Origin: Utricularia gibba
Taxonomy: Eukaryota; Streptophyta; Magnoliopsida; Lamiales; Lentibulariaceae
NCBI GenBank assembly: GCA_002189035.1
Contig: NEEC01000002.1
Coordinates: forward strand, 3,224,001-3,288,000
Length of the DNA: 64,000 nucleotides
Reading direction: 5' to 3'
Both the position numbers and the translations under genes were made by a program. A model generated the notes under the pieces. That model worked only from the letters and a program-made list of their open reading frames with translations, was not told the origin of the DNA and did no database searches. Positions 6,401-39,873 of this stretch are shown here, piece by piece; positions within the stretch are counted from its first letter, which is position 1, and the number at the start of each line of letters is the position of its first letter.

Positions 6401-9400
6401 GCTAAGGATGTTGGGATTCATTTAGGGATAGACTCACATACTAATATAGAAATTGTAAACACGCCTTCTACAATGGGCGGTGCTAAAAGCCTTTCATTCA
6501 GAGCTGGTATTGCTTCCTGTCCTCCTGCGTTTACAGGATGACTTCAGATGAGTATATCTTCGACCATTAACCAAAAAGAAGTTCATTGGAAATTACAGGT
6601 GATCGAGTCAAGTTTGTTGGGGCAAATTCTGGTGCTTTCGGTGATAGTTCTTCCAGGTAATGGTGATGCATACTCATCTTGGTTTGTTATAAATTAGATA
6701 TGACTTAAACTAATCTTGATATTCCTGACCATTTTTAAGGGATTTTGTGCAATTCGAACCATTTCAAATGTTGCTTTATTCTACTTGTCTGCGCAAGTAT
6801 TGTTCACCTGTTAACTATCAAAAAAATAAAATCCTAAAGTGGTTTAATTTTTTGTGGCATATTTGTAAATGCTTTTTGATCTCAAGTCATGTTTGGTTAA
6901 CCTTAAACCCCTTAATCAGATAATTATTTTGTTTATTTCTTGTTATTTCTTTTGTAATCCTTTATTCATTTTGAAGACCTATTTGAGATTGAGATCAGAA
7001 GTTTTTTTTAGGTTCTTTGCTATATTCCACCTCTCCCACAAATTTCATTGCAAAAATATTTACTTCTTCATTGAACATTCCTTTTATTTTTCTTGTTCCT
7101 CCGAGTTCATGTGGTAGAGAATTTGATGCTGCCTCAAGGTAGTTTCTTATGCTTTCCTGGGTTTAGTAATAGTAGTAGATGAATCATATAGCTCGATCTA
7201 GTTTTATTGTTTAGTTATATTTACTGGCGTTATGGTCTCTAATAGAGAGATTGATAATAAATGAGTAAATTGGCTAGCATAAGTCTTGCTTATCATCTGC
7301 TGCACAAGTTTTCTGTACATTAGACCTCGACCTACCTTGGATACTGGGCTTCTTCATTATTTAAGCAGAAAAGGGATTCCATGATTACTTTTATGTTTTG
7401 TATTTTCGCTTAGAGTGTATATGCATGTGTACTCCTAAGGTCATTACTTGACACTTCTGTGTTTAGGGGGCCTACTCCTGGAATGCGAGGGAAGGTGGTT
7501 TTACCTTTTGAAGATAACCTGGCATCCAAAATTGGTGTAAGATTTGACAATTCAGTGCGAGATGGTGTTGACTTGGGGGTCTCTGTGACAGAGGTTTTGG
7601 GTTCTTCTGCAATGGTAACACATACTTTCACCATGTTTTGATGTCGTAATTTTTTCTCTTACTTCTAATTTTAACAATTTTTTCATGTTTCAGCCTCTGA
7701 GCTTCGTGTTGATACTTCAAGTGAGGAGGATTTGGACAAATTGTTGATTAACACTATGTTTCAGGTGAGAAACCTATCATAAAACTCATGGCCATAACTT
7801 GCCTTGTATAGCTTGCACGTCACTTGGGTTGTAATGTGTTTCTCTCTGCATCTCTAGGTTGTGTTTCGCATTAGCCAAGATTCCCCTTTCATTTTATTCA
7901 TGAAAGATGCAGAAAAGTTCATGGCTGGAAATTTTGAAATGCATGCAATATTTAAGGCCAAGTTGGAGAACCTTCCTAGTAATGTTGTGATTATTTGTTC
8001 ACAAACTAAGAGTGACATTCCTCAAGAAAAGGTAAAAAAATATTGATCGCATTTACATTTACACTCAATTACTTGTATATTTTGCAAGCATACTTCTTGT
8101 ATTGAATGTGTTCAAGTTTTGATATTGAACATCATGCTCTAGTCAATGTAAAATGTGTCGTAATTTAACTTATTTGTTTTGCAATATTTATCTAGATGCT
8201 TATGGTGAGTACGTGTATCTTTTGGAATTATTGGTGATCATTATCCCAGTTCATTTGCTTTATCTGCCTCGCTTTTATGTCGTCTAGCCATTGTGTTGTT
8301 GTGTTTAAAGTTTGACAGATAATATTACATGGGTTTTTAATTTCCTTAGTTATCATTTCGTTTTCTTGCAGCCTGATTCAGGTATGCTTTTCACAAATGG
8401 TGGCACTAATCAAGCTACCTTGATTAACATGGCTTTCCCTGTAAGTTTTTAGTTATAAATTTCTTCTATTGTAATGGTAATTCTTTTTTAGCATCTTTGA
8501 GATTTTAATCTGTTTGGATCTCTTGTCTGGCATGAAGGTTAAATTTTAACTTTATGAACATTCTCAAGAAACCTTGCCCCATATGAAAGTACACCGTCTA
8601 ACACAACCTAGGAACTGGGGATAGTTCTCGTCTTAATGTTTTTTTTTTTTAATGTACCACAAGGGTTTTTCTAGGATTGTCCATGTGTAAACTGTTCTCC
8701 TATTTCATGTTGCCATTTTACCATATCCAGAACTGGTTGTTGTTTACGCATGCAATTTTACAAAAGGAGGTATTATCTAACATTGGACTCGCAGCTCATA
8801 AAGTTGTCTAATTGCATGCGTAATTTGCAAATGCATGCTATTTTTATGAACTCAGGTTAAGTTCGGGTGCTTCAAAGATAGATCTAAAGATGTTACCAAG
8901 GCAACTACGTATCTGTCCAAACTTTTTCCCAATCAAGTGATGATTAACATCCCACAGGTTCTTTCAGAACTTCCTGCATTTATACCTTCAATTAAGTTTT
9001 CCTGATGTGTATTTATTCCGCAGGATGAAGCAATCTTGACCAGATGGAAGCAGCAGTTGAACCGTGATGCTGAAACATTAAGAGTTAAGATGAACCTGAA
9101 TCATTTGCGATTGGTGAGGAATTTTTTTTTCCCCTGCATATGACACACTGTTGATTTTCTCCAATTTTGGTCATAATTTCTTAATTTTTTGTCATGGCAT
9201 GTGACTCTGTGAATGCTGTCAAAAAATAGTGCCATGCAAAAAGACAAAAGTGTCTACATTCAGGACTTGTTAATCACTCTTATGAGATGTTGTTTTGTAT
9301 TTCTAAGTTGCCAAGAATTTGTAAATCAGTTAGAAGATTAATTTTCTTATTGTACCTTTCACTTGAACTTAAGATTTGCATGATGTATCCGCAATCCCAG

Positions 9401-12400
9401 GTTCTACATCGCAATGGGCTGGAGTGTGATGGTCTTGAAAGCTTGAAAATCAAGGATCAGACACTTACAAATGAGAGTAAGCTCATTATCTTGGTTTCTG
9501 TATATGTTGTCATTTCCCCGTACTGAAAGCTTGCTGCTGCGTCTTCACTTACTTTAGTACAGTAATAGTTGCTTCTAGTGCGGGTAGTGGCATGCCTATT
9601 CTAATTAATAAAGAAGATATTGGAAATTATCTTCTGGTTTAATGTAAGACTTCATTGGTGTTGCAAGGGAAGTCAGGTTTTTAAATCATGGTGCATCCGC
9701 CAAATGAGAACAAACTATGTGAACAAAGTTTATTTGGAATTTTGAAAATATTTTGTAGGTGCGGAGAAGGTAGTTGGATGGGCTGTCAGCCATCAAATAC
9801 TGGAAAACTCTGAAGCTGATACCACTGCAAGGCTTGCTTTGTCTACATATAGGTAATTTTAGTTTATTTGGGCTTGTTTTGTTTTCTATGGTAGAAATTA
9901 TTACTTGATAATTTGATCAGTTTTCCCAATATCAGCATTCAACATGGTATTGGAATGCTAGATGCAATTCTGAATGACACTAAGAGTTTAAAGAAGTCCA
10001 TGCAGGTACTGTTTATTGTTTTAAGACAAGACTGAGTTTGATTAAATATTTTTGTAGTTGATTTGTAATACATGCTTATCTATTAACCTGCACAGGATGT
10101 TATTACTGAAAATGGATTTGAGAAGAGGCTTTTAGCTGATGTAATTCCTCCAGATGATATTGGGGTGACATTTGATGACATAGGAGCACTAGAAAATGTT
10201 AAAGATACTCTAAAAGAATTGGTTATGCTTCCCTTACAGAGGCCAGAACTTTTTTGTAAGGGACAGTTGACTAAGGTTAGTTCTCTTTTCCGCTAACGCA
10301 CATTAGAAAATTGCAAAGCATTCAGTTAAGCTTGTAGAGCACCTTCTTCTTTGTCAAGCGAATAGGCATTGAAAACATTCCTTGCTTTTTCTTTTTCCTT
10401 TTTAGTATGTTTCTGCTTAGTCAGGTTACTGTACATGAACCTTCAGCTCTATGACGCACCCTTATTCTTCTTGGAAGTTCTTGGTACTAGGGGCATAAGA
10501 TCTGGCGTTAAGCATTCCTGACCTAGTGCTGTAGATCTATTCAACAATTATTTCCATTGCTGCTGCTTTTGCTCATTAGTCTTGCATGTTACTGGGAAGC
10601 ACCGTATTTCTTTATCTCGCCTTGTGGGTTTTGTTTGGTTAGCCTAGATGACATGGATTAGACTGAGAATTATCAGCTGCAAAACTTCATCGCCCTGTTA
10701 TTGTCTCTTCTTATTTGGTATGGCATATTCTGTCAGTGTCTCTCTTTACTGTGCTTCATCAATTTCCTGTCTGCTACAATCTCTACCAATTAAATTAGCT
10801 TTTATCCAAATTTGTGTTTCTCTGAGTCTCATCAGCACTGCCTGTAGCATAAGCATCTGTTGTATTTGTTTCTCGCAGTCATGCAAGGGTATACTTTTGT
10901 TTGGCCCCCTGGAACTGGAAAGACCATGCTTGCGAAGGCAGTTGCCACTGAGGCTGGTGCAAATTTCATCAACATTTCATTGTCCAGCATTAGTTCAAAG
11001 GTATCTTGGTTGATGTTGGGATTGAATTTGGAAGTTTTACATAATGGCTTAACTGAGCTTGTATAACAACATATGTCTCTTTTTCACAAGTGGTTTGGTG
11101 AGGGAGAGAAATTTGTCAAGGCTGTCTTTTCGCTAGCCAGCAAGATTGCCCCAACCGTTATATTTGTTGATGAGGTAGGATTGACATTTTTTTAGGGACA
11201 GTCTCATGCAATCTTGCACTTCTGTTTCATAAATTCCATTTTTGGCGTGGTTTTCTACCTTTTTTGTGAAGGCTGATAGTATTCTTGGGACGAGGGAGAA
11301 CCCTGGGGAACATGAGGCATCGCGTAAAATTAAAAATGAGTTCATGATCAATTGGGATGGGCTTCGAACAAAAGATACTGAGCGCATTTTGGTGCTTGCT
11401 GCAACAAACAGGCCTTTTGACCTAGATGAGGCAGTAATCAGACGTCTACCACGCAGGTAAAATCAAGATGGAAAATGTGTTGATGGTCTTCTCATTTTAC
11501 TAATTCGCAAGGTACACCTTTTTTTCAAGGCGTAAAAAATATCTTACTCTCTGAACAGTTACCAGATAGCATGTACAAAGGTGTTGGGATTGAAGTATCC
11601 ACAATGTTTCTTTCCCTGTTTCGAGAAGATGATGATGTGTTGTAATAGCTCTCTTTCAATGTTCAGATTAATGGTCAACTTGCCAGACGCTGTTAACAGA
11701 GCTAAGATCCTCAAGGTGGTACTTGCAAAGGAGGACCTTTCCCCTGATTTAGATCTGGATTCTGTGGCGAATATGACTGAAGGCTACTCTGGAAGTGATC
11801 TCAAGGTTGTATTCAAATAATGCTGTTTATTGGTTTGCGAGCCTTTGGGAAATCCTTTATATTTTCCTTTGCTCCTTCAGAATTTGTGCGTGGCAGCTGC
11901 ACATCGCCCTATTAGAGAGATACTGGAAAAAGAGAAAAAGGTACGTGCCCATGGCGTTGCCCTACTTAGTCATTAACAAGTGCGAATATAAGAAGTTCTT
12001 GGCTTGCATGTCTTATTGCTTTTTATTCCAACATCTTAATCCATCAACCCAACTGAAGTTCTAATTTGTTGGCGCCTTGCTCGTATGGAATGCTTACAGA
12101 GTTTTCATTTTCCATCTGGATATGTTGTCGACAGGAGCGAGATGCTGCTCTTTCTGAAGGCAGACCTCCACCTCCTGTCAGTGGTGTTGATGATATTAGA
12201 CCACTGAACATTGAGGATTTCAAGTTTGCTCGTGAGACAGTGAGTTCACACGGGTTTCTTCTATTGTGTTTGCAATTTTCGAGTTCTCTTATGCACTGCG
12301 TTGTTTATCAGGTGTCTGCAAGTGTATCATCAGAGGCAGTAAACATGGGACAGCTTCTTCAGTGGAACGAACAGTATGGTGAAGGTGGGACCCGCCAGAT

Positions 12401-12425
12401 CAGATCTCTCAGCTACATCATGTGA
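3404..12425 (+). CDS. FHA-domain AAA-type ATPase (28 exons, two apparent 1-bp frameshifts)
   Basis: Predicted to be an AAA ATPase of the Arabidopsis At1g02890/At4g02480 type, a family linked to meiotic-clade ATPases; its substrate is not known to me. Start [12 protein letters not shown] at 3404 (exon 1 3404-3511). Exons 2-4 begin at 3674, 3973 and 4181; the last exon ends in TGA at 12423-12425. An N-terminal Ser-rich basic region is followed by an FHA-like segment in exons 4-6 ([18 protein letters not shown]), a long middle region, then the AAA module: DDIGALENV, Walker A GPPGTGKT (exon 22), Walker B VIFVDEADS, sensor region [17 protein letters not shown], and the C-terminus ending RSLSYIM. 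All introns fit GT-AG. Two exons break frame by one base: exon 12 (7467-7614) at a five-G run, and exon 22 (10879-11000) at a five-C run inside Walker A. In each, neighbouring exon phases require one more base. Either the assembly has dropped bases or the allele is non-functional. Confidence 0.88.
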
Positions 12426-13239
12426 ACATGTGCGAGGCTGCAGCACTGTACATTGAAAAGTATAGGTTTCCATCGTAAGCTCTCTCTTTTGTTTCTGGGA
12501 AATTCAATAGGTCATAGAATAGCCTGGGAAATCATGTCAATAATAGCCGCTGCTCTTTCCTCTGTTCTTACTCGTTGCGAAACATAGAAAAACAAGGAAC
12601 CCTGAGTCGTTGTTCTGTTCTGTCCAAGCTTGAATTTGGTGGATTTAACTCAAAAAGATGGGCTGTTTTGAAACAGCTTCCACAAAGCCGGATTTTGTTG
12701 TTTTTGGTTGTTTATTGTTGGAACCGTAAGGTGCCCTGATTCAACCATTTCACATCTTCCGGTAAGTGCAGAGTGGTGTATTATTCACCTCCTTCATGTC
12801 ACTGCTGACAGAGGAGCGAGCGATCTCACAATTCCATCCATCCATCCATCCCCATGGGACAAGAAGAAGAAGACCCATGAGGTTCCTCCAAGCGTAACCA
12901 GAGGCTGGCTGCTCAACTAAGCAGACTCGCCCCTCACATGGGTGACGTAATGTGGCTCTTTGAGAAGATGGTTTCCCTCTAAAACAAACAGCAAGCATAC
13001 AAATGGATCGGGAGGCAAAAGTAGAAAGCCTCCACCACCACTAATCCCCACATCTTACTTTTTAGTTCTTTTGAAGGGAGGGGTCAAAAAAGAGTCTTTA
13101 ATACCGAAAACGTCATTTCTTTAATAATATCGGATAATACTACACATTTAGTAATAACTGATAGTCTTTGAAATAAATTAATGTATTTTGAGGGCAATAA
13201 AAAGGGCCGGTATATTGAGATTGAACCGGGTCCGTTGAA
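12426..13239. other. 3' flank of AAA gene and upstream spacer
   Basis: The first few hundred bases are probably 3' UTR of the ATPase gene. The remainder is ordinary mixed-composition spacer leading to the promoter at 13240. Open frames here are short and show no recognisable domain. A short TCCA/CCAT repeat lies near 12836-12852. Confidence 0.5.
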
Positions 13240-13276
13240 CACGTGTGTGAGTATGAGTCGCGGCCTGGTTATAAAT
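13240..13276 (+). promoter_or_regulatory. G-box plus TATA box of the 13330 gene
   Basis: A palindromic G-box CACGTG lies at 13240-13245 and a TATA-like TATAAAT at 13270-13276, about 25 bp apart and 54-90 bp before the ATG at 13330. This is a compact core promoter. The G-box suggests control by bZIP or bHLH factors (light, ABA or similar), which is inference from the motif only. Confidence 0.5.
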
Positions 13277-13329
13277 TCCCCCCCGCATGTCCATTGCCAT
13301 TGTATTTGCTTTGTGTTTGCATTGTGTCC

Positions 13330-13752
13330 ATGGGAATGGAAGAAAAGCACTCCATCTTCTCTCCTCCTCTGGACTTGAAGCTCTCCATCAGCCTTCCTCC
13401 ATCAAACTACAACTGCCCGCCCCCGCCAGACCCGGCGATGAAGAAGAAGGAAGTGACTCTGGAGGACGTGAGGCTGCAGGCGGCGGAGCAGATGCGGCTG
13501 GCGGAGGCGGAGAAGGCGTACGCGGAGCGCGTGATGGAGCTCACGAGGAGGGAAATGGAGCTCGCGCGTGAAGAGTATGCACGCGCCGCCGCGCTGTGGG
13601 AGCGGGCAAGAAGGGAGGTGGAGAAGGCTGAGCGATTGGCTGCTGCCGCTATTCTGAAGAGGAATAACCCTCAGGACTCCATGTGCCTGGACTTGGCTTG
13701 CCTCTCCTGCAGAACCAAGTTCACAATCCATCAAACCCTCAGGAAGCAATAG
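13330..13752 (+). CDS. EAR-motif coiled-coil protein resembling IDD14/15/16 C-terminus
   Basis: Intronless ORF of 140 residues starting MGMEEKHSIF; a second in-frame ATG lies two codons later. The N-terminus has LDLKLSISL (residues 14-22), an LxLxL EAR-type repression motif. Residues about 42-110 form a charged Ala/Glu/Arg helix with coiled-coil character (AEQMRLAEAEKAYAERV). The C-terminus has three cysteines, C119, C124 and C127, in MCLDLACLSC. The helix followed by a Cys cluster resembles the C-terminal tail of INDETERMINATE DOMAIN factors of the IDD14/15/16 group, but the four zinc fingers that bind DNA are absent. A role as a small repressor or partner that dimerises with IDD proteins is inference. 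The coding part is GC-rich (about 60%) compared with the flanks. An AATAAA signal lies at 13794-13799, 42 bp after the stop. Confidence 0.75.
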   Translation: MGMEEKHSIFSPPLDLKLSISLPPSNYNCPPPPDPAMKKKEVTLEDVRLQAAEQMRLAEAEKAYAERVMELTRREMELAREEYARAAALWERARREVEKAERLAAAAILKRNNPQDSMCLDLACLSCRTKFTIHQTLRKQ

Positions 13753-13793
13753 CGTAGGAGTGAAGAAGAGCAGGCAGCTTCACCGCGGGCGCC

Positions 13794-13799
13794 AATAAA
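13794..13799 (+). terminator. polyadenylation signal AATAAA
   Basis: AATAAA occurs 42 bp after the TAG of the IDD-tail-like gene, at a suitable distance for a plant near-upstream element. Confidence 0.45.
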
Positions 13800-14499
13800 A
13801 ATTACTGTTGTATGATGATATCACATTGCAGTAGCAGTTGTATCTCGCAAACCGCGCGCACGCGTGATATTGTTCCACCCCCGTTTCTGATCACTGTAAA
13901 TGATGATGAGTGGGTGGGTGTGTGCCTTTTTGTAGAAGAAAACGCAGTGAGTGAATGAGCAACAACAGGGAAGGGGGAGCCGTGATGCGACCTACGCCCG
14001 CCCTTTGTCAGACCCAACACAATGAGGAGAATGTCGACATCGATACATACCCTCGGCTCTTGCCCAAATCTTCCTTTCCTTTCCTTCACCCTGGTGTGCG
14101 AGTACGATAGCGTAGGCCAGCGTAGCCAAGGAGGACATGCCATGTAAACTAACGTGTGTTTCAGTGTTCAAAAGACGTGGTCCGGAGTGGTGAGTGGACA
14201 GCACTGGACTGCACTGCTTCTATCAGAAACCCAGACTCCGAGGCAGTCAAAAAGTATTCACCATGCAAGCAGTCAATTATGATTATGACAAACACTTTAA
14301 CCTTAACCGCTTGTCCTTTTTCTGCACTGTCTGGTTCCCCTTCAACCACTCCACCACCCAGCAGCATCTTCTTCTCAGAACTCCACCCAAAAGCCAAACG
14401 TGGGCTGTCAGAGGAGACCAATGTCTAAAACCAGAAAAACCACGAGCATGTGAAATTTGCAAACAACTTGCAAAAGAGATTATATTAGGAGATAATAAT
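13800..14499. other. intergenic spacer
   Basis: Mixed-composition DNA with short open frames on both strands. None carries a recognisable domain. GTGGGTGGGTGTG near 13912 is a minor simple repeat. Nothing else could be supported. Confidence 0.4.
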
Positions 14500-15060
14500 T
14501 TATTATTCGAGTATGATCATGTGGCATATGCTAGATGGATCTCCATACTTCAGAACTGGTACATGCTACCTAGATCATTCATCTGAAACCTCATTTCATA
14601 AACTCCTTGAACTGCTTTATGGCTGCTCTATCACATCCAATGATGAGAACATCATCTATGTAGTTAACAACAACCAAAGCGCTATTGCCATCTTATTTAT
14701 GTAAGTGAGCAGCTTAATTTCTACTCTTCTCAAAGTAGATTCAAGCTTGCAATACTAGGCTCTAAATGCCTACTTCAAATCGTGTAAGGCTTTAGAAAGT
14801 ATCATCATATGTATTTTGTTAACTTTGAAACCATGGGTTGAACATAATGAATTTTTTATTTCAGATCTCCATTTAGAAAGGTTGGTCCATTTGATGAATA
14901 TACCAATTTTCTTGAGATAAGATGGAGAATATGGTATGAATTGTATCAAACCAAGCCAGTGGTGCAAAAGTATCAAAATAGTCCATCCATTCCTCTTTGG
15001 AATACCTCTTAGCTATCAATCTTTCATTATACTTAAAAATATTTTGTTAAGTGTCATTTT
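14500..15060 (-). pseudogene. Copia retrotransposon reverse-transcriptase fragment (degenerate)
   Basis: Read on the minus strand and across frames, the segment holds pieces of a Ty1/Copia reverse transcriptase. There is a sequence like YFDTFAPLAWFDTI, then FLNGDLK, then KALHDLK/FRA (compare ALYGLKQAPRAW), and the active-site block NYIDDVLIIGCDRAAIKQF around 14610-14665. Several frame changes and stops separate these blocks, so it cannot make a protein. No LTRs, gag or integrase were recognised around it. It is a different and older insertion than the Copia remnant at 17-19.8 kb, and in the opposite orientation. Confidence 0.75.
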
Positions 15061-16992
15061 CTCATTATTTCTTATGTTGTTTTTATGTTTAATTGTGATT
15101 AGAAATATCTAATTAGGAGTCTATAATATGATATTTAGGTTTTTATCTAGTTTAGAGTAATTATCCTAAATCTTGTATTTTATCTAATAATTTTGCTAGT
15201 TTTAATTGAGTTTTTCTAGAGGTGCACAAGTGGCAGTAAATGAAAGAAAGAGGGCAGCAGATGGCAACAAAATGGATCTTTCCAAGCTGACACTTCCTTG
15301 ATTTCCGAAGACTACAAACACCTAATCATGAGCCTTGACGTGCGGAACATGGGAGTCTCTGACATGCACATCATTAGCGTACCAGTGTCAGAGCAGAACC
15401 ACGAGAATACGAAATCTCAAACAAAATAGTTCAGCTCAGCTCAATTCAGGGGAGACTAGTTTAGTTTTACTTTCAATTTAATTTAGACTTTTGTTTCTCT
15501 CTCTTAAGGATTTTCCTCTAACTTCTCTTTAAAACCTTGTTTTTGTTTCCTTTAGTTTGTATGGTCGTTCATGGCTAGAAACTTCCGTTTCTGGGTTGGG
15601 ACGCTCCCAGATCTATGTTTCGTTAGCTTATCTTCATCTTTTCTTTGAATCCGAATGGGTTTCTTATGTCTTCACGCGACTATCTTGCAGTCTTTCTGTA
15701 ACAGCCCCCTTATTCAAGATTCATGGTTAACTGATCACTACTCGCGAGTTTTGGAGAGGAGCAAGGTGGAGAGCACTAACTCATGCCCTTTTGGTAGGAG
15801 GAAGACAACGTTTTGTCTATGGCCGTACCTCAAGATCAATGGACAGGTAATGACCTCATATCTGGACTCATTGGGTCATTGGCAACACTTGGGCACATGC
15901 GCCCAATTCGGCCGTGAGGGTACGCTGGCAGGACCTCTTATTCTCACGTTCTTCCAAGGGGGAACAACATCGAGCTATTCCTGTGTCTTCTTGCAAGAGA
16001 GTGTAAGGGAGGGTAGGCAATTCTTTACTCCTATAACTGAGTACTCGAGAAGACCAGAGAAGAGTGAAGACGCAACAGACATAACTTGTATTCGATAACA
16101 TTCACCTTTTTATTTAAGTTGTCTGTTCAAAACCCCTGTTATTCCCTTACTCAAGCTTCATCATTTACGTTTCTCACATCTTTACTTCCAAAACCGTTTA
16201 CAAATCGTGATACTTGTATTCGATGTAACATCACCTTTTATTGAAAAAAAAACTCCCTGCATTCGACACCCATACTATGCTTTTGTATTTTACGAGTTTT
16301 AAAAATATTAAAATTTTTTGTGGAAATGACACGCATAATACTTCTATTTGCATTAGTTCTGATTTCAAAGACCCATGTTAGTCCAACAATGTTATTGTTT
16401 AGAGGGTCTATATAGCTATGGATCAATGAATGAGGTAGGAAGGTCCATGTCAGTAGATAAGCTCCTTTTTTTGCACACCTTGAGTAGATCTGTTGGTCTT
16501 TTAGGTCATAGATTAAGTAGGAATGATTTATAAATATTATTTTGAAATTTTTTTTGCTTAATTAGATAACACTTAGAAAGTTCCTATCAAGTTTATATAC
16601 TCACATAACATCATCTATATGTTGATTGAAAGTGATAATGATTTTTAGTGGAGAGGCACTGATAGAACATTATTCCTTGAACGAATGATAAAAAAAAATG
16701 GGCTGATCTTGGTAGAACAATTTAAAGGAAGAAAAGGCTTTAAAAAAGAAAAAAATTTATTCGCACAAGCAGCTTATTTATACTCTTGTACTAATTAATC
16801 CAACAAAAGATAAAGAGGTTGGTTTACTAGTAATGATCCGTCCAATACTCAACATACTTCAATAATTCTACGAGAATGAAGAAAGATTAGAAGTGGCTAT
16901 CTTATTTGTAGCCGATGTGGTTGACTAGTGTGATAAGAGAAATGCATATGATGTAGCATCAATAGTTTCTAACACCATGAACCATTGATCAT
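15061..16992. other. intergenic, unclassified repeat-like DNA
   Basis: No gene recognised. A 147-residue open frame at 15655-16098 has no known domain. A pair of short direct repeats, ACTTGTATTCGAT...CACCTTTT, lies at about 16084 and 16211, roughly 127 bp apart. Pyrimidine-rich stretches near 15470-15560 resemble a leader or LTR, but no partner copy is visible. Confidence 0.35.
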
Positions 16993-17300
16993 ATTGGAAA
17001 TTCTTATATGGGAGAAGAGCTAGGGATCCCACATTATTAGTTTAAATCCTCTTCAACTAATATATATAGGATACCAACCCATCATTCTTGATGGACTTGA
17101 GAATGAGCTAGGCCTTGCGTGTGTGCAATGTTCTAATTTATTATATTGGATTGGGTTTTTAAAGGGCCCCGAAACCCAAAAGACTATGCTTGTAGGGGGT
17201 GCAAGCCCATGTTTCGCCTCATTTTTGTATTGAACCTATTAGATTTAGATGTATATATTTGACTGATTTCTCAAACCGACATTGCGTTCTCGATGTGTGA
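16993..17300 (+). repeat. 5' LTR of Copia remnant
   Basis: Aligns by eye with 19481-19840 over its whole length, with many substitutions and small gaps. Its start is degraded (TTGGAAATTC instead of TGTTAGAAATT), so the left edge is good to a few bases only. Confidence 0.7.
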
Positions 17301-17369: not shown

Positions 17370-18960
17370 ATAAAATCAACTAGATGGTAGTGATGAGACA
17401 CCTATCAATGAAACTGTTCAAACTAGTGAACTCTTGGAGGAATTGACTCTGAGATGAAGCAAAAAAAGATGATAGAGTCGAACTTAGTCAATGGGTTCTA
17501 TGTATATCTTACCAGTAAAGATCCTCTAACTTACCATGATACAATTACTTCCTTAGATGCTTTATTGTGTAATAGACCTACCCCCTAAGGCAAAGCAATT
17601 GAGAGCAAATGAATCTTTAAAAAAAAACTCATTGTAAATGATAAAGTAGAAAAATATAAGGCTTGACTAATAGCAAAATGTTTCACACAGAAATCGAATG
17701 TAACTAATTTGAGACATTTTCCCAAGTGGTTCACTTTTCTACCATACGAGTACTCTTTGTAATGACATATGTGCATAATTGGATAGTTCACCAAATGGAT
17801 GTCAAAATGGCATTCTTGAATGATGAATTGAAGTAAGAAATCTACATGTTTTAACATGAGGATTGTATAAAAGTTGGAGACGAACACAAAGTGTGTCGAC
17901 TGAAGAAGTCATGGTATGGCTTGAAACAAGTACCTAAATAAAGGCATGAAAAATTTGATGAAGTCATAACATCGTCAGGCTTCAAATCAAATCCAGTCGA
18001 AAAATGTGTTTATTCTAAAAATTTTTAAGATCAATGTGTGATCATAACCTTTTTATGTAGATGATATATTGAACTTTGGACCAAACCTAGACACTGTACT
18101 AGAAGCCAATAAATTCTTAACCTCAAAATTTGAGATGAAGGACATGGATGAAGTTAGCTACGTATTGGAAATCAAAATCATGAGAAATGAAAAAGAGTTT
18201 CTCTTAACTCAAAGTCATTATACCGAGAAACTTTCAGAAAAGTTTGATTTTCATGATGTAAAACCAATTAGAACTATGTATGATCTTAGTATTAACTTAA
18301 AGAAAAATAGAGTTGACCTTGCATTTTAGAGTGAATATGCTTAGATAATAGAAAGTGTGATATATCTAATAAATCATACCTGACTAGACATAACGTATGC
18401 CATTAATAGATTGAGTAGATACACACACAATCCAAATGAAAGCCATTGGATACCTGTGAAGTGGTTATTGAGATACCTCAAGGAATTGCTGACTATAACA
18501 TTCAATATCATAGAGAACCTGATGTATTGGAGGGATACAATGATACTAGTTGGGTATCAGAGATATAAGAATTAAAGGCCACAAGTGGAATAACTGTTAC
18601 ATTGAGAAGAGAAGTTGCGTGAAATCCACAAAACAAACTTTGAGAACTAGGTCAACAATGGAAGTAGAGATCATTGCATTAGATCTAGCAAAAATTGAGG
18701 TCAATTACTTGAGAAACTATGTGATGAGAATCTCACTCAAGCAACATGGATCTTTCCCAATGGTGCTGTATTGTAATTATCAAGCAGCAATTGTCACGAT
18801 CAAGAATCAATCGTATAATGGAAGAAATTACACATGCGATTGAGGCATGAAACATTGAAACAGTTGTTAAAAACTGGTGTGGTATTCGTTGAATTTGTGA
18901 GAAGATTTGTGAGCTTTCAAGGGGAATGGAACCACTAAGCAAGCGATAGTAATGGTAACC
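17370..18960 (+). pseudogene. Copia reverse transcriptase / RNase H remnant
   Basis: Frame-broken coding remnant of the C-terminal part of a Copia polyprotein. The longest open pieces are 18069-18329 (reverse transcriptase palm/thumb, with NFGPNLDTVLEANKFLTSK and YTEKLSEKFDFHDVKPI) and 18550-18843 (RNase H). The expected YVDD active-site block near 18060 is interrupted (LCR*YIELW-like reading). It cannot encode an active enzyme. Confidence 0.8.
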
Positions 18961-27547: not shown

Positions 27548-29376
27548 TCAACCGGCAGCAGTGAAAAGTTGGACGATCCTGGCGGCGACATCCTCCATCT
27601 GGTCCCTGGAGTGAAGGGGAGACGGATACACGAGGATGCAGTCGAGTTGGCCGTCACGAACGGTGTCGAAAATAGCTATGGAAGGGCCGATCCCATGCGC
27701 CGATGCACACCCCATGTAGTCCTCCACCCCCCGAGCTCCTAACCTCACCGGAGTTGTCGATCACCGGGTCCTCAAACACCGACACCAGAGAGCTTCGGAG
27801 CGAAGAAGACGGGGTCAGGCCGGGATTGTCGATGGCTTTGGCCATCAGGAAATTGAGGTCCCCCATGTCCGTGATGTGTTTGTTGCCCGTCTTGGATCGT
27901 GAAAACTCGGAGAAGCAACTGCTCGCCAACTCCCAAACTCCCTCGTTTCCCTTGACGCTGTGGGTGTTGAGGATGGCGGAATGGTAGAACCCTGTTGCAT
28001 TGCAATCCACAACAACAACAACATAAGTCCCGCCCCTCAGAAGCAATTCCTAACATAACTCTCAGTGATTCCGATTGGTTACCAAAGTGATGGGACGAGA
28101 GGGGAGGGTGGAGGATGGATCTGCAGTCGGTGAGAGTGACGACTCCATACTTCCTTTTTCCCCATTTTGTTGAGCTTGAACTCGAGTGTACAGCAAGCAT
28201 GGCTGCAGCAGACAGGGCTCCACACAATTTAATTCCTCTGGATTTACACCCCTGCCCACAAAACAATACCGATTCCTCATTAAGTTCAGCATCATCATCA
28301 TCATGGACCACCACCAAATCACATTTGCAGCTGCGCATCCCTATTATTTTTGTAAAAGCCAGAGAGGAGTGAGGCGCCCAGTTCTAAAACCGAACTCTTA
28401 CTTTTTTACCTACTAGTGAAAGTATGGTCTCAATCGCCATCGATGCCTGCCTTTTATGGCAAGCGGGTGACAGAGTGGGGACTCAAACGGTTAAAGAATA
28501 ATTAACTTCTCCAGCTACATGGTCGTCATGTCATAAACGGCCTTGGCTGTGAAGTCAAATTTATGCAGTCACCCCCACACATAAACGGCGTGAGTTACTT
28601 ACTGCGAGAATCTGGGAGGTGATGTGTTGGTTGATCAGCAGCCTCACCACCTCTGACCTTCTTGAACACTTGGGGTTCAGGAATTCCATGTTGGTGAGCC
28701 GCAACGAGCTCAGGGAGTACCCCAGCAGATCTCTTCCATGGGCCCATATCTTCTTCTTCGTCAACCCCACCGGGATTAGGCTCTCCAGGGCCGCGTCACC
28801 CTCGCTGGGGTTTCTTTCAGTTTCCTCCTTGTCCGCCGTCGACTGCAACCGGAGAAGCTCGAGAAGGAGAGATACGGCAGTTGTCCGGTCGCAGATGGAG
28901 GTATGAAAACGGAGAACGGCCACCGTTTTCGTGTCGGACACAGGGTAGACAGACACGTACACGACGTCGACGCCGCTGCATGGGAACGTGTCCGGATCGG
29001 ACCAGTTCTCCCCACTGTTCATCTCGTGTTCGAGGATTTTGTGAACTGGGGAGATTCCATCAGCATTGTTTCGTCGGAGGATTGCCGACGTCTCCGCCGC
29101 CTCGTGGAAGGTGACCCGGCTCCCCAACGGCGCGGCGGCGTTTCGGAGGAAGTTGAAGGTTTTGCCCCCAGCGTCGTAGTGGAGTTTGCACGTCAACAGA
29201 GGGTGCGATCGCTGGAGAGCATTCAGCGTTTTCTCGAAGTCGTCGGATGGTTTACTTCGGAGCTGAAGAGCAAGGACGGTGACGCCGGTGCCGGAAGTGA
29301 CTGCGCGGCACCAGTTTTGCTCGGTGTTTCCGAGGGGACGCGCATGCTGAAGACAGCTCTGATCGGCGACGGCCAT
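27548..29376 (-). CDS. acyltransferase/condensation-fold protein, plant-specific, apparent 1-bp insertion
   Basis: Three minus-strand exons: 29376-28603 (258 codons), 28251-28083 and 27991-27548. The start is MAVADQSCLQHARPLGNTE. The fold family is the CoA-dependent acyltransferase/condensation superfamily, related to BAHD enzymes. The best active-site candidate is FHTSICDRTTAVSLLLELL, a His-x4-Asp rather than the classic HxxxD. Further conserved blocks are CKSRGIKLCGALSAAAML, VVTLTDCRSIL, GFYHSAILNTHSV and VEDYMGCASAHGIGPSIAIF. No BAHD DFGWG motif is seen, so substrate and activity are unknown. In exon 3 a six-C run (plus strand 27727-27732) shifts the frame. Exon 3 is one base too long for its phases, and the true-looking C-terminus (ending HSRDQMEDVAARIVQLFTAAG) lies in the next frame. 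Most likely a sequence error, otherwise a recent truncation. Confidence 0.78.
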
Positions 29377-29440
29377 TTGGAAAAGCAAAAGACGCAGAGG
29401 AGGACAGTTGTTGTGTGGAGGCGGAGGCTGGCTCCCCTGA

Positions 29441-29450
29441 CTTTATATAG
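29441..29450 (-). promoter_or_regulatory. TATA box of acyltransferase-like gene
   Basis: Read on the minus strand this is CTATATAAAG, about 65-75 bp upstream of the ATG at 29376. Sequence and distance fit a strong plant TATA box with a short leader. Confidence 0.6.
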
Positions 29451-32400
29451 ACGCAATTGCCACCCTAGTAGCTCTTTTCATTTTCTTAAACCACCCATAG
29501 ACACTGTCTTTTCTTTTTACTAAAATAAATTATTTCAATAAATACTTTTTAATCAATCTGATAAAAGGAAACTGAAATGATACATAAATTAAGATCTGAT
29601 ATAACAGTGAAATACCATAAAGATAATCCAATAAACAAAGAGCGTAAATATCAAATTAATGAAGAAATATTTTTTAATTTTTTTAAGAAAAATAGGGATG
29701 CACATATGCCAAATTTGATTCACCCAGTGTAAGAGTAGTTGATTGAAAAGAAATAAGAATACATAAAAACAAAAAAAATCAGTCTTGATAATTTGAAAGA
29801 GTAAAGTTTGACAGTGATATATTAAATTACAATCAGTATAAATAATCTAATCATCAAGTTTTAAAATTATCATATATACTTCAACTTACATTTTTTGTAA
29901 ACAATTTGTCCCCAACTTATGAAATTACATATTTAACTTCTAATATTCGAGTTTTTATTGAATGGTTTTGACAATTGTTTTGTTCTTTTTTTTTATAAAT
30001 TTAATTTCTTATTTTTAATTTATCATTTAGGAGTATTCGTTGTATACTTAATGTTTCATATTTGGTTCATTTTTTAAAAATTTTAAAAATTATTTGAGTT
30101 TTCGTTAAACGATTTTGATAACTTGAGGTGTCTTTTTTATAATTTTGAAATTTGGTGATTAAACTCTTTATACTAACTAAAACTTAAAATGTTATTTTTA
30201 CAATTTTTTTCTAATTTGATATTTAAAGTTATCAACTACGTTTAAAATTCAAGTGGTTAATTATGAAAGTAGAAACTTTTTAAAAAAAATAGGAATCACG
30301 GAATAAGATGCAACCTAATTTATAAATTTAAAGAATCAATCCAAGTTCACCACTTGCTAGTTTTACTTGAGATTATGAAATGATGATAACAATTCAAGAC
30401 TAAGCAAGTATTGGATTTCTTAATTTATTCTTCCAATATTATAATTAAAACATTAAAACAAGGGGTGAGTGACATAACGCTGAATCTCTGCATCACACCT
30501 TTAAAACAACAGGTTTTGGTTGAAGTTGTATTGTAAAACCAGCGTGGCGTTGGACGTTGGTCTGCTCATAATAATAATTCCAAAGCCAGCAATTAGTTTT
30601 ATTCTCCCCAAGTTACTGCCTTGTCGATGGAAGGGGGGCACCCGCCCGATTCTCAAATAAGTGAGGGAGGACGCCTTCAAAACGACCGCGTTTGGGGAGG
30701 CGTCGCACGTGCCTCCTCAAGCATCGACCCAGATGAGAAGCTCACCGGAAAAACCAGGAACGTCACCTCCCCAATCGGAAACCTCAAATAAACTCTGATA
30801 CGTCACGCATGTAACCCGAGTTTAATTGATTTGAATATCTTTAAACTAAATTAGTCAATTTAAAAATGCAATAAAAAGTACCTATTTGATATTTGGATTT
30901 AAAATTATTTTGGTATGCAATATAAAAAACGCATATCACATCGCATACATGTAAACTATTGAACACATCTTTAAATCCAAGTAGCCCTGGAAATAGATAT
31001 TGAAGTGTCCAAAGTAGAAGGTCAGAGAAGAAAGAAGATGAATACATATGTGGATTGAATAGATATCATAATTTAACTGGATTGAATATAATATTTTTTT
31101 TTGAAAAAAAATATTGAAGTGAGACAATGGCACTTATGTCAAAGCCAACCGATTCTTTTGAATGAGAGAGAGATGTAGTGCATAAGGGCTAGGCATGAGG
31201 TATGGCGGCGCCGGCGGAGGGCGAGGGATTGGATCATAGGGTAAAAATAATTTTAAATCTTTCATAAAAAATCAAATTTTAAGAGATTTAAAATCTTGAT
31301 CCTACCGACTTGTCCTAACTACTGTAAAAAAAACTTCTGGATCTTCAGCATCTCGCAATGTTTTTTTTCTCCATTCTTCGACATAGCTGCAAAGCGAAGA
31401 AAAAAACTTTCAAATTTCACCCAAGTTGCGTTAGTTTCATTCCACGAGATGGTGCAATATTTGGGCTAAGGATCAATTTTTTATATATACAATATTCAAT
31501 TTTGTCACACACTTAAATGAGTATGTCCATTTTTATAATATATGCTTGAATTGTGTCCCCCATTCCGTGAGTGTTATCCCACTGGATCTGGGAGTCTGGA
31601 GCCGGTTTATGGAACCTGCCCACCTGACACGGAACGCCACCGCCGTCCATGTGGTTGGTTATTTAAACATGTTGGTGATAGATGATGCGGAAGCGCGTCG
31701 CCATAAATGCATTGAACCAGCCACCGGAATAACTGCGCAGCATAATATTCGATTCCATTCCCTTGAAGAATTAGCATTTGGGTGGGAACTGGAACTGGGA
31801 CTGGGAGGGCGCTCTCCCTAGTCCCTACAGACTTGGTTTGCTCTTTTGTGCAAGTGCTAGAAATGGAAGGAACACATACAAATGGAAAATTATGGAGAAT
31901 TTCTTGTAGCAAACTATTATATGCATTGCTTATATCTTGAAGTAATATCTTTCTTTCATTCAAGTGTCTACAAATTATGATAAATTTGACACGATAGTTT
32001 TAGTAAATATATCAATATTCAAAGTTTTAATAATCGGAGTTGTGGGTCTTTTGTTTAGATGGTTTGGTACTAAGAGTTTAAGATTCAATAGTGTAGTGTT
32101 GGGGAGTGCTGATGAGTATCCCTTCTTTATGGGTGTAATCTAGCATCGTCAAATCTTGAAGAAGGTTTTAAAAATCCCAAATATTCCAAAAACATAAAAG
32201 AAGGAAAACATATTTCTATGTTCAATTTCTGAAATGACTAAAATGACCCTATTTACATCCAATTTTTAGTAACAATGTTAGTCTAGTGTTAGGTAAAATT
32301 GATCTTGATAAGTTTTTCTAATCGATTAAACTTGATGGTTAAATTGATATTTTAATATCAAAGTATATAGTATAAACAAAAGATATGGAACTATAAGTAC

Positions 32401-32512
32401 TGAGCCTTGCACTCGATGTTGACCATCTAAACAAAAGCCATGGAACTTGGCTATTTGCACTTTATTCTGATCCTTAATATTCTCCCAACCATTTACATTC
32501 GATAGGGTGTGT
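29451..32512. other. gene-poor AT-rich region with two GC-richer islands
   Basis: Mostly AT-rich, stop-dense DNA. An island at 30480-30800 is GC-richer and holds several ACGT cores (GCACGTGC near 30706, ACGTCACC near 30760, TACGTCACGC near 30801) but no coding signal. A second at about 31550-31830 has a 91-residue open frame with no recognisable domain. Neither has a supported gene. Confidence 0.4.
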
Positions 32513-32514
32513 TT

Positions 32515-32732
32515 GTTTGTTTGATATAAAGTGGCTATAAATGGGTTAATAAAAGATAAATTTATTTGATATCTTATTAAATATTTAATTAGTTTTTAAA
32601 TCAAAATCTATATAGAATCTTTCATAAACCTAATTTGTGTATATTTTTTAAATCCATTAATTATATGGGTTTTTAGAATATCCATCCATACCCAAATTCT
32701 CTAAACCGATTTACATCCAATCAAACGCATCC
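32515..32732. repeat. possible small inverted-terminal element (MITE-like)
   Basis: The left end GGGTGTGTTTG and the inverted right end GGATGCGTTTG match at 9 of 11 bases. They are flanked by TA on both sides and enclose 218 bp of AT-rich DNA. The TIRs are short and imperfect, so this is only a candidate; the superfamily is not decided. Confidence 0.35.
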
Positions 32733-32989
32733 TAAGCTTACCCCCACACTCAGTTGCTATTTGCACTCTGTTTCATTATTATATTCGATATCAGTATTGA
32801 AACTCTCTTTGACACTCGGAAATTAACATTCATTAGTACACTTTCCCATACTCGGTTATCAAGCTTAACATTTAATTAGATATATTGCATTGGATACATT
32901 TTATAACAAGGCCTTTTAATTAAATAATAGCTTTAGTTGACTGTTATTATATCCAAAAACTAGATGCTACATGATTGTTTGGATTTTGT

Positions 32990-33545
32990 TATATGATATT
33001 TGAATATACACATTAATTAAAAAAAAGGGATATATTAGGTGATTTGTATGATGATGCATTTGTTGGCATCGGGTGTGATAGTGATGATTATGATATTTAT
33101 GAAATTTTTGATACACAATTTCTAATTGATCCTCATGATGGGAATTCATTTACTTTAAGATATATGATATAGATTTATAAAGAGTAATAAAACAATACTC
33201 ACTCTGATGTGCCTAGGTAATGAGGATAGATAGGTAATTTTCTTGAGAAATGTTTTCGTTAAACTATGGTGGATGGGAAGAAAGTTTATGTAGAAAGTAA
33301 TAAATGATTTAAAAATAAATATCAAAAAATTATTGAAGGAGATACATACGAATTTAAGGATAAAAATATCCACTCATACTATTAGAAAATGGAACGATTA
33401 TACCAAAAAGTTGATATATAATAGGAGGGAACTTTCTGATTTTGAACGGTTGAAGAAGTATTGTGTAATTACTACTCTCTTTAATAAAAATGCGAAAATT
33501 GAATATCTAATGGGAAATTGTGGTAATTTGAAGGTACAATAGAGA
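32990..33545 (+). other. possible transposase-derived fragment, unclassified
   Basis: Open pieces include DDAFVGIGCDSDDYDIYEIFD (about 33040-33110, + strand) and a 69-residue frame at 33333-33542 with IRKWNDYTKKLIYNRRELSDFERLKKYC split by no stop. The acidic stretch followed by a basic helical stretch with a DFERLKKYC-like ending faintly resembles the N-terminal part of plant MULE transposases. The likeness is weak and no DDE catalytic region follows. Confidence 0.25.
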
Positions 33546-34404
33546 TATGAAATATATGTTTTGTTTTAAGATATATTTGCATTGAATATATGAGAAATTC
33601 AATATCAATTTATGTGATAGGTGTGTACATATACTCTTGATTTTATAAGTTTCATTTTAATGATCGTATTCACCACCCTTTACACTATAATTAAATTATT
33701 TTGTAGATGATTTTAAATTACTTTGCAAGATGTCTGTGAATTTATTGCAAAGATAAATATTTCACATATGTCACCTAATGTTAGAATATAGCATTCTGTT
33801 AGAAAACACGAATGATATTAACGAACAAATGATGCAGGTAGTTAAAGTGTCAATTTTGTTTTTGTAGAGTTGAGAGACATATTCGAAGTTATTCGTGCCT
33901 AAAAAATAATGTGTATTTTTTTTATATAATTAGTAGGATTAAAATTATATTTCAGATATAAAATAATTAATGTTTGATAAAAAAATGAGAGAATATTAAA
34001 CCTTTGTACATAAGATTAAAAAAATGATTTGAATCTCGAACTTATTTAAATCAATATAGTAAATACGATATAATTTATAATTTTTACTTTAAACCCTATT
34101 AACCTCATCAATTAAACACAATGTATATGATTATTTATAGGTTCTCTATCATAAATCAACGTGTTTAGAAGAACGTCTACGAAACACTAGTTTTTTTTAA
34201 TCCATGGGTTTAGCCCCTAAACTAACGTAACAAACGGTGGCTTAGATTCATTTACTTGATTTACCCTAGAATACAAATTAACCTGTAAAATAAAAAGAAA
34301 ACAAATGGATTTTCTATTTTTGTTTCCATGGGCCGGGTTATCAGTGGAAGTATCATTTTGGGCTTAGCCCAAAATTAAATAAGGCTGCTGGCCACATTCA
34401 AGGG
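33546..34404. other. AT-rich upstream spacer of kinesin gene
   Basis: AT-rich DNA without recognisable genes. The last 100 bp become richer in GC near the kinesin promoter. Confidence 0.4.
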
Positions 34405-34442
34405 TATAAATAAGTTTGCCACATCAACCAACGCGACAACGG
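34405..34442 (+). promoter_or_regulatory. kinesin-5 core promoter: TATA box and MSA-like AACGG
   Basis: TATAAATA at 34405-34412 lies about 256 bp before the kinesin ATG. Just downstream, CAACGGTCT contains AACGG (34438-34442), the core of the plant mitosis-specific activator element bound by three-repeat MYB factors. That would fit G2/M expression of a spindle kinesin. The motif is short, so it could be chance. Confidence 0.4.
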
Positions 34443-34667
34443 TCTCTGAATCTGAATTATAAAAATAATAAAGAAATGAAAATTGGAGATGCGTAGCGGC
34501 ACCTCAAAATTCAAAAAATTCCGGACCACCGCTACCTTTTTTTCGTTCATTTCAAATTTCTCCTTCTCGACAGCACGCGCTGGGTATCTGTGACTGCCGG
34601 AGAAAATTTTCACGGTGGCGCGGTGACAAATCAGCACACGCCGACGCGGAGAGACTCGTATTTTAAG

Positions 34668-37600
34668 ATGTCGAGTCGTCAAGAGAAGGAGAAGGGCGTG
34701 AATGTACAGGTTCTCCTCCGATGCAGGTAAGACTTGTTTACTAATGTGGATGCGGTTGCTGCATTCTTGAGGCTGATCTAGAGCTGTTTCCTTGGCGGAT
34801 CTAGGCCCTTCAGTGACGACGAATTGCGGAACAATGCTCCTCAAGTGGTCACTTGTAATGAGTTCCAGAGGGAGGTTTCCGTCTCGCAGAATATTGCTGG
34901 GAAGCACTTTGATAGGGTTTTTACATTCGACAAGGTGATTTGATTCCTCTTCTTTTTAATGTCTCACCCGAAATTTCATTTGCAATTTGGTTGCTGATGC
35001 TTTAGTTTTCCAGCATTTCTGGTGCATAGCTGATAGTGTTTTTTTGAGATGACATGAAGCTCTAGTCTGTTGCAAAACCTCGTTATTGTGCGTTCCTTTT
35101 TGTCTAAGGATTTATAACCTTGCCTTCTGGTTTTAGGTATTTGGGCCTAATGCCCAGCAGAAGGATCTTTATGATCAAGCAGTTGTTCCCATAGTAAATG
35201 AAGTTCTCGAAGGTTTCAATTGCACAATTTTCGCATATGGACAAACAGGAACGGGAAAGACGTATACAATGGAGGGGGAATGCAAGAGAGCAAAGGTACC
35301 GATTATGTTTCTTATGCTACTTCCCTCTTTGATTTTCTTTAAACCCTGAACTAAATCATCTGTGTCATCTTCGCTCATATCTTTAAGAGTGGGCCCAATG
35401 GAGAATTGCCTCCAGAAGCGGGAGTGATACCAAGGGCAGTGCAGCAAATATTTGATACTTTAGAGGGGCAAAACGCTGAATACAGCGTGAAAGTCACTTT
35501 CTTGGAGTTATACAACGAGGAAATTACTGACCTTCTGGTTCCTGAAGATATATCCAAAGTTTCTTTAGAGGATAAGCAGAAGAAGTTGTTGCCACTCATG
35601 GAAGACGGTAAGGGTGGTGTCCTTGTCAGGGGGCTGGAAGAAGAAATTGTTTCAAGCGCTAGTGAGATTTTCACTTTGCTTGAAAGGGGATCCTCTAAAC
35701 GTCGAACTGCAGAGACGTTACTCAATAAACAGTCAAGGTACAGATGTTGATTTATTGTTTGTTGTTTGTCATATCCTAGTTAAAAACTCTCTTTTTTTTT
35801 CTTGTTTGCAGTCGATCACACTCGTTGTTTTCAATAACAATACATATAAAGGAAGCAACACCTGAAGGTGAAGAGCTCATCAAGTGTGGAAAGTTGAATT
35901 TAGTTGATCTGGCTGGATCGGAGAACATCTCACGGTCTGGGGCTCGAGAGGTATGATTCCCTTGTTTGAGTATGTCTGTCGATAGTTATAACCGTCAGTT
36001 TTCATAAGGCCTACTATTTAATTTCCTTTCCAATATTTATCTCATCAATGCATCTAGGGTAGAGCAAGGGAAGCTGGAGAAATTAACAAAAGTTTGCTTA
36101 CATTAGGACGAGTAATAAATGCTCTTGTGGAGCATTTGGGACATGTGCCCTACAGGTTCCAATTTTATGCTTTCATTTGCCCCCTTAGTTGGAATACCTA
36201 CAGCTAGTTTATCATGCTGTCCAAAATCCTTTGCAGGGATAGCAAGCTCACACGCTTGCTTCGTGATTCATTGGGTGGAAGGACAAAGACATGCATCATC
36301 GCTACAGTTTCACCAGCTGTTCACTGCCTTGAGGAGACCTTGAGCACATTAGACTATGCTCACAGAGCTAAGAACATAAAGAATAAACCTGAGGTATGCC
36401 ACTTGTTTTAGCAAAATTGGATACTTTTCAGACCATTGGTACTCTGGAACTTGGCCTTGGTTGATATATGTGCGTTGTAGCAGCGGCTATTCATCATCTG
36501 GGGAAACTTTTCCAGATCAATAGTGTTTCTCTTCCTTGTCTATTTAGGTAAATCAAAAGATGATGAAATCAACCCTCATAAAGGATCTCTACGGTGAAAT
36601 AGAGCGGCTCAAAGCAGGTGGATTGTTTTTTTCCTTTTCATGGACATATTGACGGTTCCTTGAATTTTTTCCATATTTTTTTGATTCGGCTTTATTGGAT
36701 CTCCGTATATAGAGGTCTACGCTGCACGGGAGAAGAATGGTGTCTACATTCCGAAAGAGAGATACTATCAGGAAGAAAGTGAAAGAAAGGTGCAGCATGC
36801 CGTATTACTTTGTATATAATAATGTTAAGTTGCAGCTCATGATAAATGGATTAAAAATTGGTCACCAATGCTGGAGGCCTTGTTTACTCCTTTTTTTGAG
36901 GTGTGAAGAATATTAGGTCCATGAATTTTGACTATTTCTCTCTGGAACGTATTGTAGGCAATGGCTGACCAGATTGAACAAATGGGACTATCTTTAGAAA
37001 ATCATCAGAAGGTTGGTCTTTTCGAAGATATGAACTATGGAACCTTCAAAAGTAATTACATGAATTGAAGTTGTGAATATAATACAGCAAATAGAGGAAC
37101 TACAAGCAAAGTATGAGGACAAGGCCAAGCAATGTGCTAATTTAACCAATGAACTTGATGCAGCACGTGTAAGTCACTTCCTTTTCTTCTTACTGGAATA
37201 AATATCCAACAGTTGTCTCATTCTGAGGTCATTGCAGAAAGATGTGCTTCTTACTAGTAAATTGCTGGCTGGAACTGAGGAGGAGCTAAAACTTTCTCAG
37301 TATTCCCTGAAAGAACGGGACTTCATTATATCTGAACAGAGAAAAGCTGGTAAATGATCAAATTTTGTTTCTTGTGATTTCCTCACTTTCTGATGAATGT
37401 GTGTATATCAGAAAATGCGCTGGCTCATCAGGCATGTGTTTTACGATGTGATCTGGAAAAGTCTCAAAGAGATAATGCATCCCTCTTTCTTAAGATTTGT
37501 AAGTTGTTCGTTGATGTGCTGCTTTCTGTAGATTTGAATGTGGAAAGCCATGCCTTATTTGTTTGTGTTCTTTCATCCAGCTCGAGAGGAAAAAATGAGT

Positions 37601-39873
37601 GCTGATAACAGGCAGACTGTAAATAGTTTTCAAGCTGATCTTGCACAGCAACTCGGCAATCTTTGTGAATCATTGGTGGTGTCAGCCTCTGTGCAAGATG
37701 AACACCTGAAGCATGTTGAGGATTTGTGTGAATCTTTCCTTCAAGTACATGATAAGGTTTTTCACAATTTGACTACTTATCATTTTTTTTTCTTTTTTAG
37801 ATGTTTTTAAAGCTTTCGTTAACACCTTAGTTTGATTATAAGATTGCCCATTGGGTTGCTGCCTAAAAAATGTGTTTTTGTAGGCTTTTATAGAATTGAG
37901 GAAGAAGATAAGTTGTTCTAGGACGCTATATTCTTCTCATTTTGAGGCAGTGCAAAATGTTGTTTGCCTGCACAAAGCAAGCGCAAATGCTGCATTGGAG
38001 GAACTGTCGAACTTAGCCTCCTCTAATTTACAATCTATTCAAGAAGTAAAATTTCTTTTTCTATACACCTTTGTTTCATATTCTTTTATATCTGTGAAAG
38101 CTCATTATGTGTACCTCTACAGTTTTTAGAAGCTGATGCTGTCAAATCAAAGTCAGTTTTTGATGAACTTCAGGAAGTTCTCTCAAGTCATCAACAGGAA
38201 ATGGCTCTCTTAAAAAAAGAGCTTCGGAAGGTTTGCTTCTTTTTTTAGCCTCTTAAGTATTTCTTGAGCCATGTGATTACTTGGTCATTTGATAATTCTG
38301 CAGAGGCTTGACTCGAGTTTGGAGCACCTGGCTGACACCTCTGAATTCATCCATAAATTCGTTGGCATGCTTTCTGAAGAAACAAAAGGTCTTGAAGATC
38401 ATGCTAATCGAATTGATGAAATACAGGCAAAGCGCATTTCTGATTTTCGGAAGACTTATGAGGTATGTGACTTTAAGTGGATTGGAAAAGGACGTGCATC
38501 TTTCTTCTTACCCGTTGGATTTGATATCTGCAGGATCAGTCAAGATCAGAAACCGAGAAGCTCATTGCAAGTATGACATGCCTTGTCTCAGAGTGCATGC
38601 GACGTCAGAAAGAGATGGTTCAGATTTCTGTCTTTGTATTCTCGTATTTGTCACGTTATCTGGTTTTCTGTTTCACCTGAAATTCAGCTGAACAGGTGGA
38701 TGCAAGTCTGAATGATATTAAGGATGGTACAGTTGAGAATAAGAAGTTTTTGGATGGGCATTCTATTAGACTTGGTGGAATTACAACAGATTTAAAAAGG
38801 AAATGGCAGGATTGCTTTGTGCAGGCTGAGAATAGCTTTAAAGATAACGCTGAGTTCTCTAAACATTGTCGTATGGATTGCTAATACAGAAATGGTTAGG
38901 ATATGCGTAAATCAGCATTTGACTGCAGTCTTCATTGTCTCTTATTTTTATGTTACACTACATATTTCAGTGTTAGCAGTGCTGATACTGCTTTAGAGGG
39001 CTGGCAAGGTATGCAAGAGTCCTTGATAGATATGGGCACCAAACATGCTTCCACAATTGCCTCTGATGTTAGGTTCGTACTGTTTCCTGGAAGTGGTTTT
39101 AAATGACAGTAATCTTCATTTCCCTATCTCTCTTCAAATCCAGAATATAATGGCTTTTTGCTTCTCACCTTTTGTGCAGGATTGTATGTGAGATGAACGA
39201 ACAGCACAACTCTGAGGTCGAGTCCACCCGACTGCTTGCTGAGAATGACATCAAAGACAGTAGTGAAGCCATTGTTCGGTGTCTTGATGGTCTCTATTTT
39301 CTTGACATGAGTTCTCTTTGTATTTTAAACATCATTGAGAGTTTCCGTTTCAGTTTGTGGATCTAATTTTCTTCGATTTGTGTTGTTACTGCAGGCTTGT
39401 CCGGAGAAGGGAAGCAATGCATCACCCAGATCATGGCCACTTCTAAAACTCATTCGGAAACACTTACGAGTCTACAGAGCAAGCATTCTCAGCAGTCCAC
39501 TTCTATACACCAACATGCTACCAGTACCTTCAATACCAGATACATGGCAAGTTCCTTTTTGCTTATAAAATTAGAGTTCAAGCCACAGACTAGAACTTTT
39601 CGCCGTGCGCTCCCTCATCATTCATTCCTTTGATATCTTTAAGCACCTACAACAATTTCCATGTCTTGTTAGGATTACGAGCCTACAGGCGCAACACCTA
39701 CAAAGTGTGAGCCTGACATTCCGAGCAAAAGCACGATCGAGTCTTTACGAGCAATGCCGATGGAGGCCCTTCAAGAAGAATTCAGAGAAAAAAATTCATT
39801 CCAAACTTTTCAGGCCAAAGAACTCAAGAATCAACCACAGGTGCCTCGTGCTCCGCTTTCACAGATCAACTAA
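34668..39873 (+). CDS. kinesin-5 (BimC/KRP125-type) motor, 23 exons, one apparent 1-bp frameshift
   Basis: Plus-end-directed bipolar kinesin that crosslinks and slides antiparallel microtubules in spindle and phragmoplast (family knowledge). Start [20 protein letters not shown] at 34668. The motor domain has P-loop GQTGTGKT, switch I NKQSSRSHS, switch II DLAGSE and [12 protein letters not shown]. The neck ends at [12 protein letters not shown] long coiled-coil stalk follows, then a C-terminal BimC-like tail around [14 protein letters not shown]. It ends PRAPLSQIN with TAA at 39871-39873. Introns fit GT-AG except the last, which is GC-AG (39547-39672). In exon 19 (38696-38894) the reading HCRMDC runs into TAA at 38882-38884. 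One extra base after 38877 restores LLIQK and the phase to exon 20 (acceptor before TGTTAGCAGTGC). Either an assembly error or a truncating mutation removing about the last 200 residues. Confidence 0.92.
39547..39672 (+). other. GC-AG intron of kinesin-5
   Basis: The donor reads ATG|GCAAGT and the acceptor TTAG|GAT. Joining at these points gives RYM-DYEPTG, the conserved tail wording, in phase 0. No GT donor nearby keeps the frame. GCAAGT is the usual consensus of minor GC-AG introns. Confidence 0.75.

Follow-up and report, generated by a model that had tools for sequence, protein, structure and literature searches.

The four single-base frame breaks that interrupt three genes in this stretch of plant DNA are very probably errors left in the consensus of a long-read assembly and not changes in the plant's own DNA: short homopolymers, G/C runs especially, would mostly have been miscounted, and the three genes would be ordinary ones, in all likelihood undamaged in the plant itself. 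The window, by which we mean the whole stretch of 64,000 nucleotides that was analysed (C451:3224001-3288000), is taken from an assembly whose 516 contigs add up to 100.1 Mb, the largest seen reaching 8.5 Mb, and its genes are intron-rich. We located the breaks by reading the sequence and with a home-made spliced aligner that tolerates introns and frameshifts, and surveyed the assembly by way of gene families and overlapping contigs. Three genes of the window are broken: an AAA-ATPase (two breaks), an acyltransferase-like gene (one) and a kinesin-5 (one). A preliminary description had reported four single-base frameshifts between positions 7575 and 38884 in genes with intact splice sites; all four were recovered by spliced alignment, which, beyond the shifts themselves, detected no in-frame stop, no broken splice site and no larger deletion in any of the three genes.

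The AAA-ATPase gene (3404..12422, + strand) was aligned as 28 exons and 1146 codons, with 27 introns and two shifts. Its product matches the Pfam families AAA (4.6e-38), DUF7751 and AAA_lid_3, and we take it to be of the plant FHA/AAA type, the FHA part being assigned from plant homologues. Break 1 (7573..7579, + strand), placed by alignment and paralogue comparison, lacks one base where TT meets GGGGG: the paralogues on contigs C2, C255 and C375 read GA(C/T) TTT GGG GG(T/G), the window GAC TTG GGG G. Since TTT precedes GGGGG or GGGGGG in all three paralogues where only TT precedes GGGGG in the window, the aligned letters suggest that the lost base was more likely a T beside an unchanged G run than a G. 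Break 2 (10905..10909, + strand), found by spliced alignment, is a CCCCC in the P-loop GPPGTGKT that is one base short. The paralogue on C2 carries the same P-loop CCCCC with the same break, as seen in its alignment and, independently, by pattern search.

The acyltransferase-like gene (27551..29376, − strand; three exons, 461 codons) was recovered by spliced alignment with two introns and one shift, and has a Pfam match to PapA_C (3.2e-05) that lies below the curated cut-off. Break 3 (27727..27732, − strand) is a run of six G that is one base too long, as judged by alignment with an intact paralogue that reads CGA GGC GTC GAG at this place. Against this paralogue the dN/dS of the gene is ~0.11, and likewise 3′ of the break. 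The kinesin-5 gene (34668..39870, + strand; 23 exons, 1008 codons) was aligned with 22 introns and one shift and matches the Pfam family Kinesin (4.9e-116); its closest paralogue, on C1, is only 51% identical, too distant for a useful dN/dS. Its last intron (39547-39672) has a GC donor in place of GT. Break 4 (38876..38884, + strand) is one base short in ATGGATTGC, where the shift creates a TAA at 38882-38884.

The four breaks differ in how closely they are tied to homopolymers. Three of them had been described as length changes in G/C runs, which is clear for breaks 2 and 3; break 1 sits at the boundary of a T and a G run and has likely lost a T, and break 4 lies outside any G/C run, with only a TT at the site and no homopolymer there beyond two or three bases. 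Long-read errors are enriched in homopolymer runs, not confined to them, and the position of break 4 lowers our certainty for this break only. The other genes of the window that had been called clean are so: p24, SNX1 (with the Arabidopsis protein as the query) and RER1 are intact on re-alignment, the WD40 gene reads through 475 amino acids in a single open frame, and L7Ae is clean over its core, the part downstream of the first exons that could be modelled with confidence. The window also holds open frames at 43485-44634 that resemble what we take to be a PIF/Harbinger-type transposase, and fragments at 18048-18843 reminiscent of the reverse transcriptase and RNase H part of a Ty1/copia-type element.

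Elsewhere in the assembly, conserved genes unrelated to these three have breaks of the same kind, often enough to account for those in the window, and overlapping contigs disagree in the same manner. Contigs C376 and C413, compared over 22 kb, differ by six mismatches and 16 indels, each of the latter a single base in a homopolymer. Twelve of the 16 fall in G/C runs of 3-7, even though there are twice as many A/T as G/C runs of at least three bases (odds ratio for the G/C bias 6.6, Fisher p = 4e-4). Short contigs could be of poorer quality than long ones, although losses occur in both of these contigs, six of the 16 in the long contig C413. Because C413 carries an extra 4.65 kb (C413 ~5393090-5397743) that is absent from C376, the two sequences may represent two haplotypes, with some of the run differences being allelic. 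The flanks of this insert overlap by five bases, as a recent transposon insertion with target-site duplication would leave.

Furthermore, contig C506 overlaps the window from position 49901 onward, is near identical to it over 55.4-68.2 kb, and is a single C shorter than the window at each of two places, 55598 and 62037. Of these positions, the latter serves as a control site at the start of RER1 (62037..62041, − strand): it is an intact G5 in the window and a G4 with a broken frame in C506, so that breaks of this type occur also in the region of the window itself. Over window positions 49901-55344, C506 and C451 are ~1% apart (49 mismatches and many indels), with almost no differences after 55.34 kb; so abrupt a change could mark the border between two haplotypes, or the assembly may be a mosaic here.

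Among other conserved genes, we surveyed the cytosolic-type HSP70 and the HSP90 genes of the assembly, leaving out HSP110-like genes (N-terminal matches only) and flagging a break wherever adjacent matches abut or overlap in different frames. Three of the seven HSP70 copies and two of the five HSP90 copies are frame-broken, with six one-base breaks in ~20 kb, five of them in G/C runs. In five of the breaks a single base was lost: two of these hit C4 runs and the others a C5, a G4 and a T5, the run lengths being those needed for an intact frame. In the sixth, a run observed as G5 has changed its length. One of the broken genes lies on C451 itself, 55 kb beyond the window. The HSP70 sequences on the long contig C304 and on the 31 kb contig C241 are identical around the same G5-run frame break, which would mean that one systematic error arose twice or that a true mutation lies in a stretch that was duplicated.

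The AAA-ATPase family adds a second sample: its members on C255 and C375 are unbroken over ~1130 codons each, and the copy on C2 has three breaks in 3.0 kb, all in G/C runs. Taken together, there are ~9 breaks in ~36 kb of coding sequence outside the window. This rate predicts ~3 breaks in the window's ~12 kb, where four are observed, and the number found in the window therefore calls for no special explanation. Long-read homopolymer error, which the preliminary description had proposed as the cause and which it had suggested checking by how often G/C runs across the assembly carry indels, thus gains support from three sides: near-identical contigs differ mainly by G/C-biased one-base homopolymer indels, and breaks of the same class occur at a similar rate in HSP70 and HSP90 and in the constrained AAA paralogue on C2. 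That each of the four breaks is individually an error is what we infer from this pattern; at a single site, a real mutation may be involved.

The strongest case for real damage can be made for the AAA-ATPase, as a decaying duplicate in which one or both breaks are recent mutations, the breaks in the other two genes being assembly errors. Since its split from the C2 copy (dS ~0.39 between the two), the window copy has accumulated 146 nonsynonymous and 59 synonymous changes, close to the ~2.8:1 expected under neutrality (dN/dS ~0.9 on its own lineage), with a peak of 62:17 between its two breaks and 110 unique amino-acid changes as compared to 14 in its sister. In such a gene real damage would be no surprise, and this, along with the location of break 4 away from any long homopolymer, speaks against a technical origin of the breaks. 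The C2 lineage, by contrast, has 29 nonsynonymous and 68 synonymous changes (ratio ~0.15), a pattern that points to strong constraint, with which three real frameshifts in that copy are hard to square; one of the three is the P-loop break that it has in common with the window copy. The window copy itself has acquired no stop codon among its 205 lineage-specific changes, where ~7 would be expected under neutrality (P ~7e-4), its 27 introns retain intact splice sites, and its AAA domain is still constrained (22:17, branch ratio ~0.2 to 0.5). Moreover, the error rate of the assembly would by itself put about one false break in this gene. We therefore regard decay of this duplicate as improbable, if worth keeping in mind; a fast-evolving duplicate that has kept its frame is the description that suits the gene best. 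The description of the broken genes as otherwise conserved accordingly suits the acyltransferase and only half suits the AAA-ATPase, whose frame is kept and whose protein evolves fast. Similarly, a dN/dS near 1, named beforehand as a sign against assembly error, was found in part, in the AAA copy and not in the acyltransferase. It does not rescue a general decay, because three breaks are found in the sister with the low ratio and the window copy is free of stops.

That all three genes are pseudogenes which lost function independently would account for a frame break in each, and is nevertheless very unlikely: the acyltransferase has a low dN/dS against its intact paralogue, also 3′ of its break, and the same breaks recur in HSP70 and HSP90. 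A true pseudogene of the acyltransferase family, at C304:1474900-1476700, looks quite unlike the window genes and offers a contrast to their single breaks: parts of it are missing, its frame shifts four times and it contains an in-frame stop. Equally hard to credit is that the run-length changes are real, which would mean that short G/C runs slip unusually often in this plant lineage and that the outcome is tolerated even where a copy of an essential gene is hit. The differences in G/C-run length between near-identical contigs could in principle be allelic, but real slippage favours A/T runs, which are longer and commoner, several essential chaperone copies would have to be broken, and the pattern is that of a known error mode of long-read consensus. 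Finally, the P-loop break could be a conserved recoding site, a programmed frameshift common to two paralogues, given that the same C5 is found at the same place in two copies as diverged as these. We know of no such recoding in this AAA-ATPase family, and six-base G/C runs are those most often one base short in this assembly. We rejected this reading, the least probable of all, because the other two copies encode the P-loop with neither the run nor a shift and because the domain downstream of the break in the C2 copy is strongly constrained.

Consensus error at short homopolymers thus being the preferred reading of the four breaks, the finding amounts to a warning about what is very probably an artefact, not to a discovery. 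At ~0.25-0.33 breaks per kb of coding sequence, roughly one in three ordinary genes of this assembly would be falsely broken, and any tally of pseudogenes, lost genes or split genes based on it would be inflated. In the window, automatic gene models would be truncated or split at the four breaks.

As for the origin of the assembly, its contig sizes fit a PacBio plant assembly made with HGAP, and the paralogue dS values fit repeated genome duplication. A PacBio-only HGAP/Quiver assembly of Utricularia gibba has been published with 581 contigs and an N50 of 3.4 Mb (PMC5793159); our count of 516 contigs is close to this, not an exact match. In long-read-only assemblies, residual homopolymer-length errors fragment genes and are removed by short-read polishing, according to two reports on such errors (PMC8812927, PMC12007338). 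The cases described there resemble ours in that one-base indels in short homopolymers fragment the frames of genes that are otherwise intact. They differ from ours in concerning bacterial or small genomes, whereas the breaks that we describe are found in a ~100 Mb plant assembly and show a strong bias to G/C runs of 3-7.
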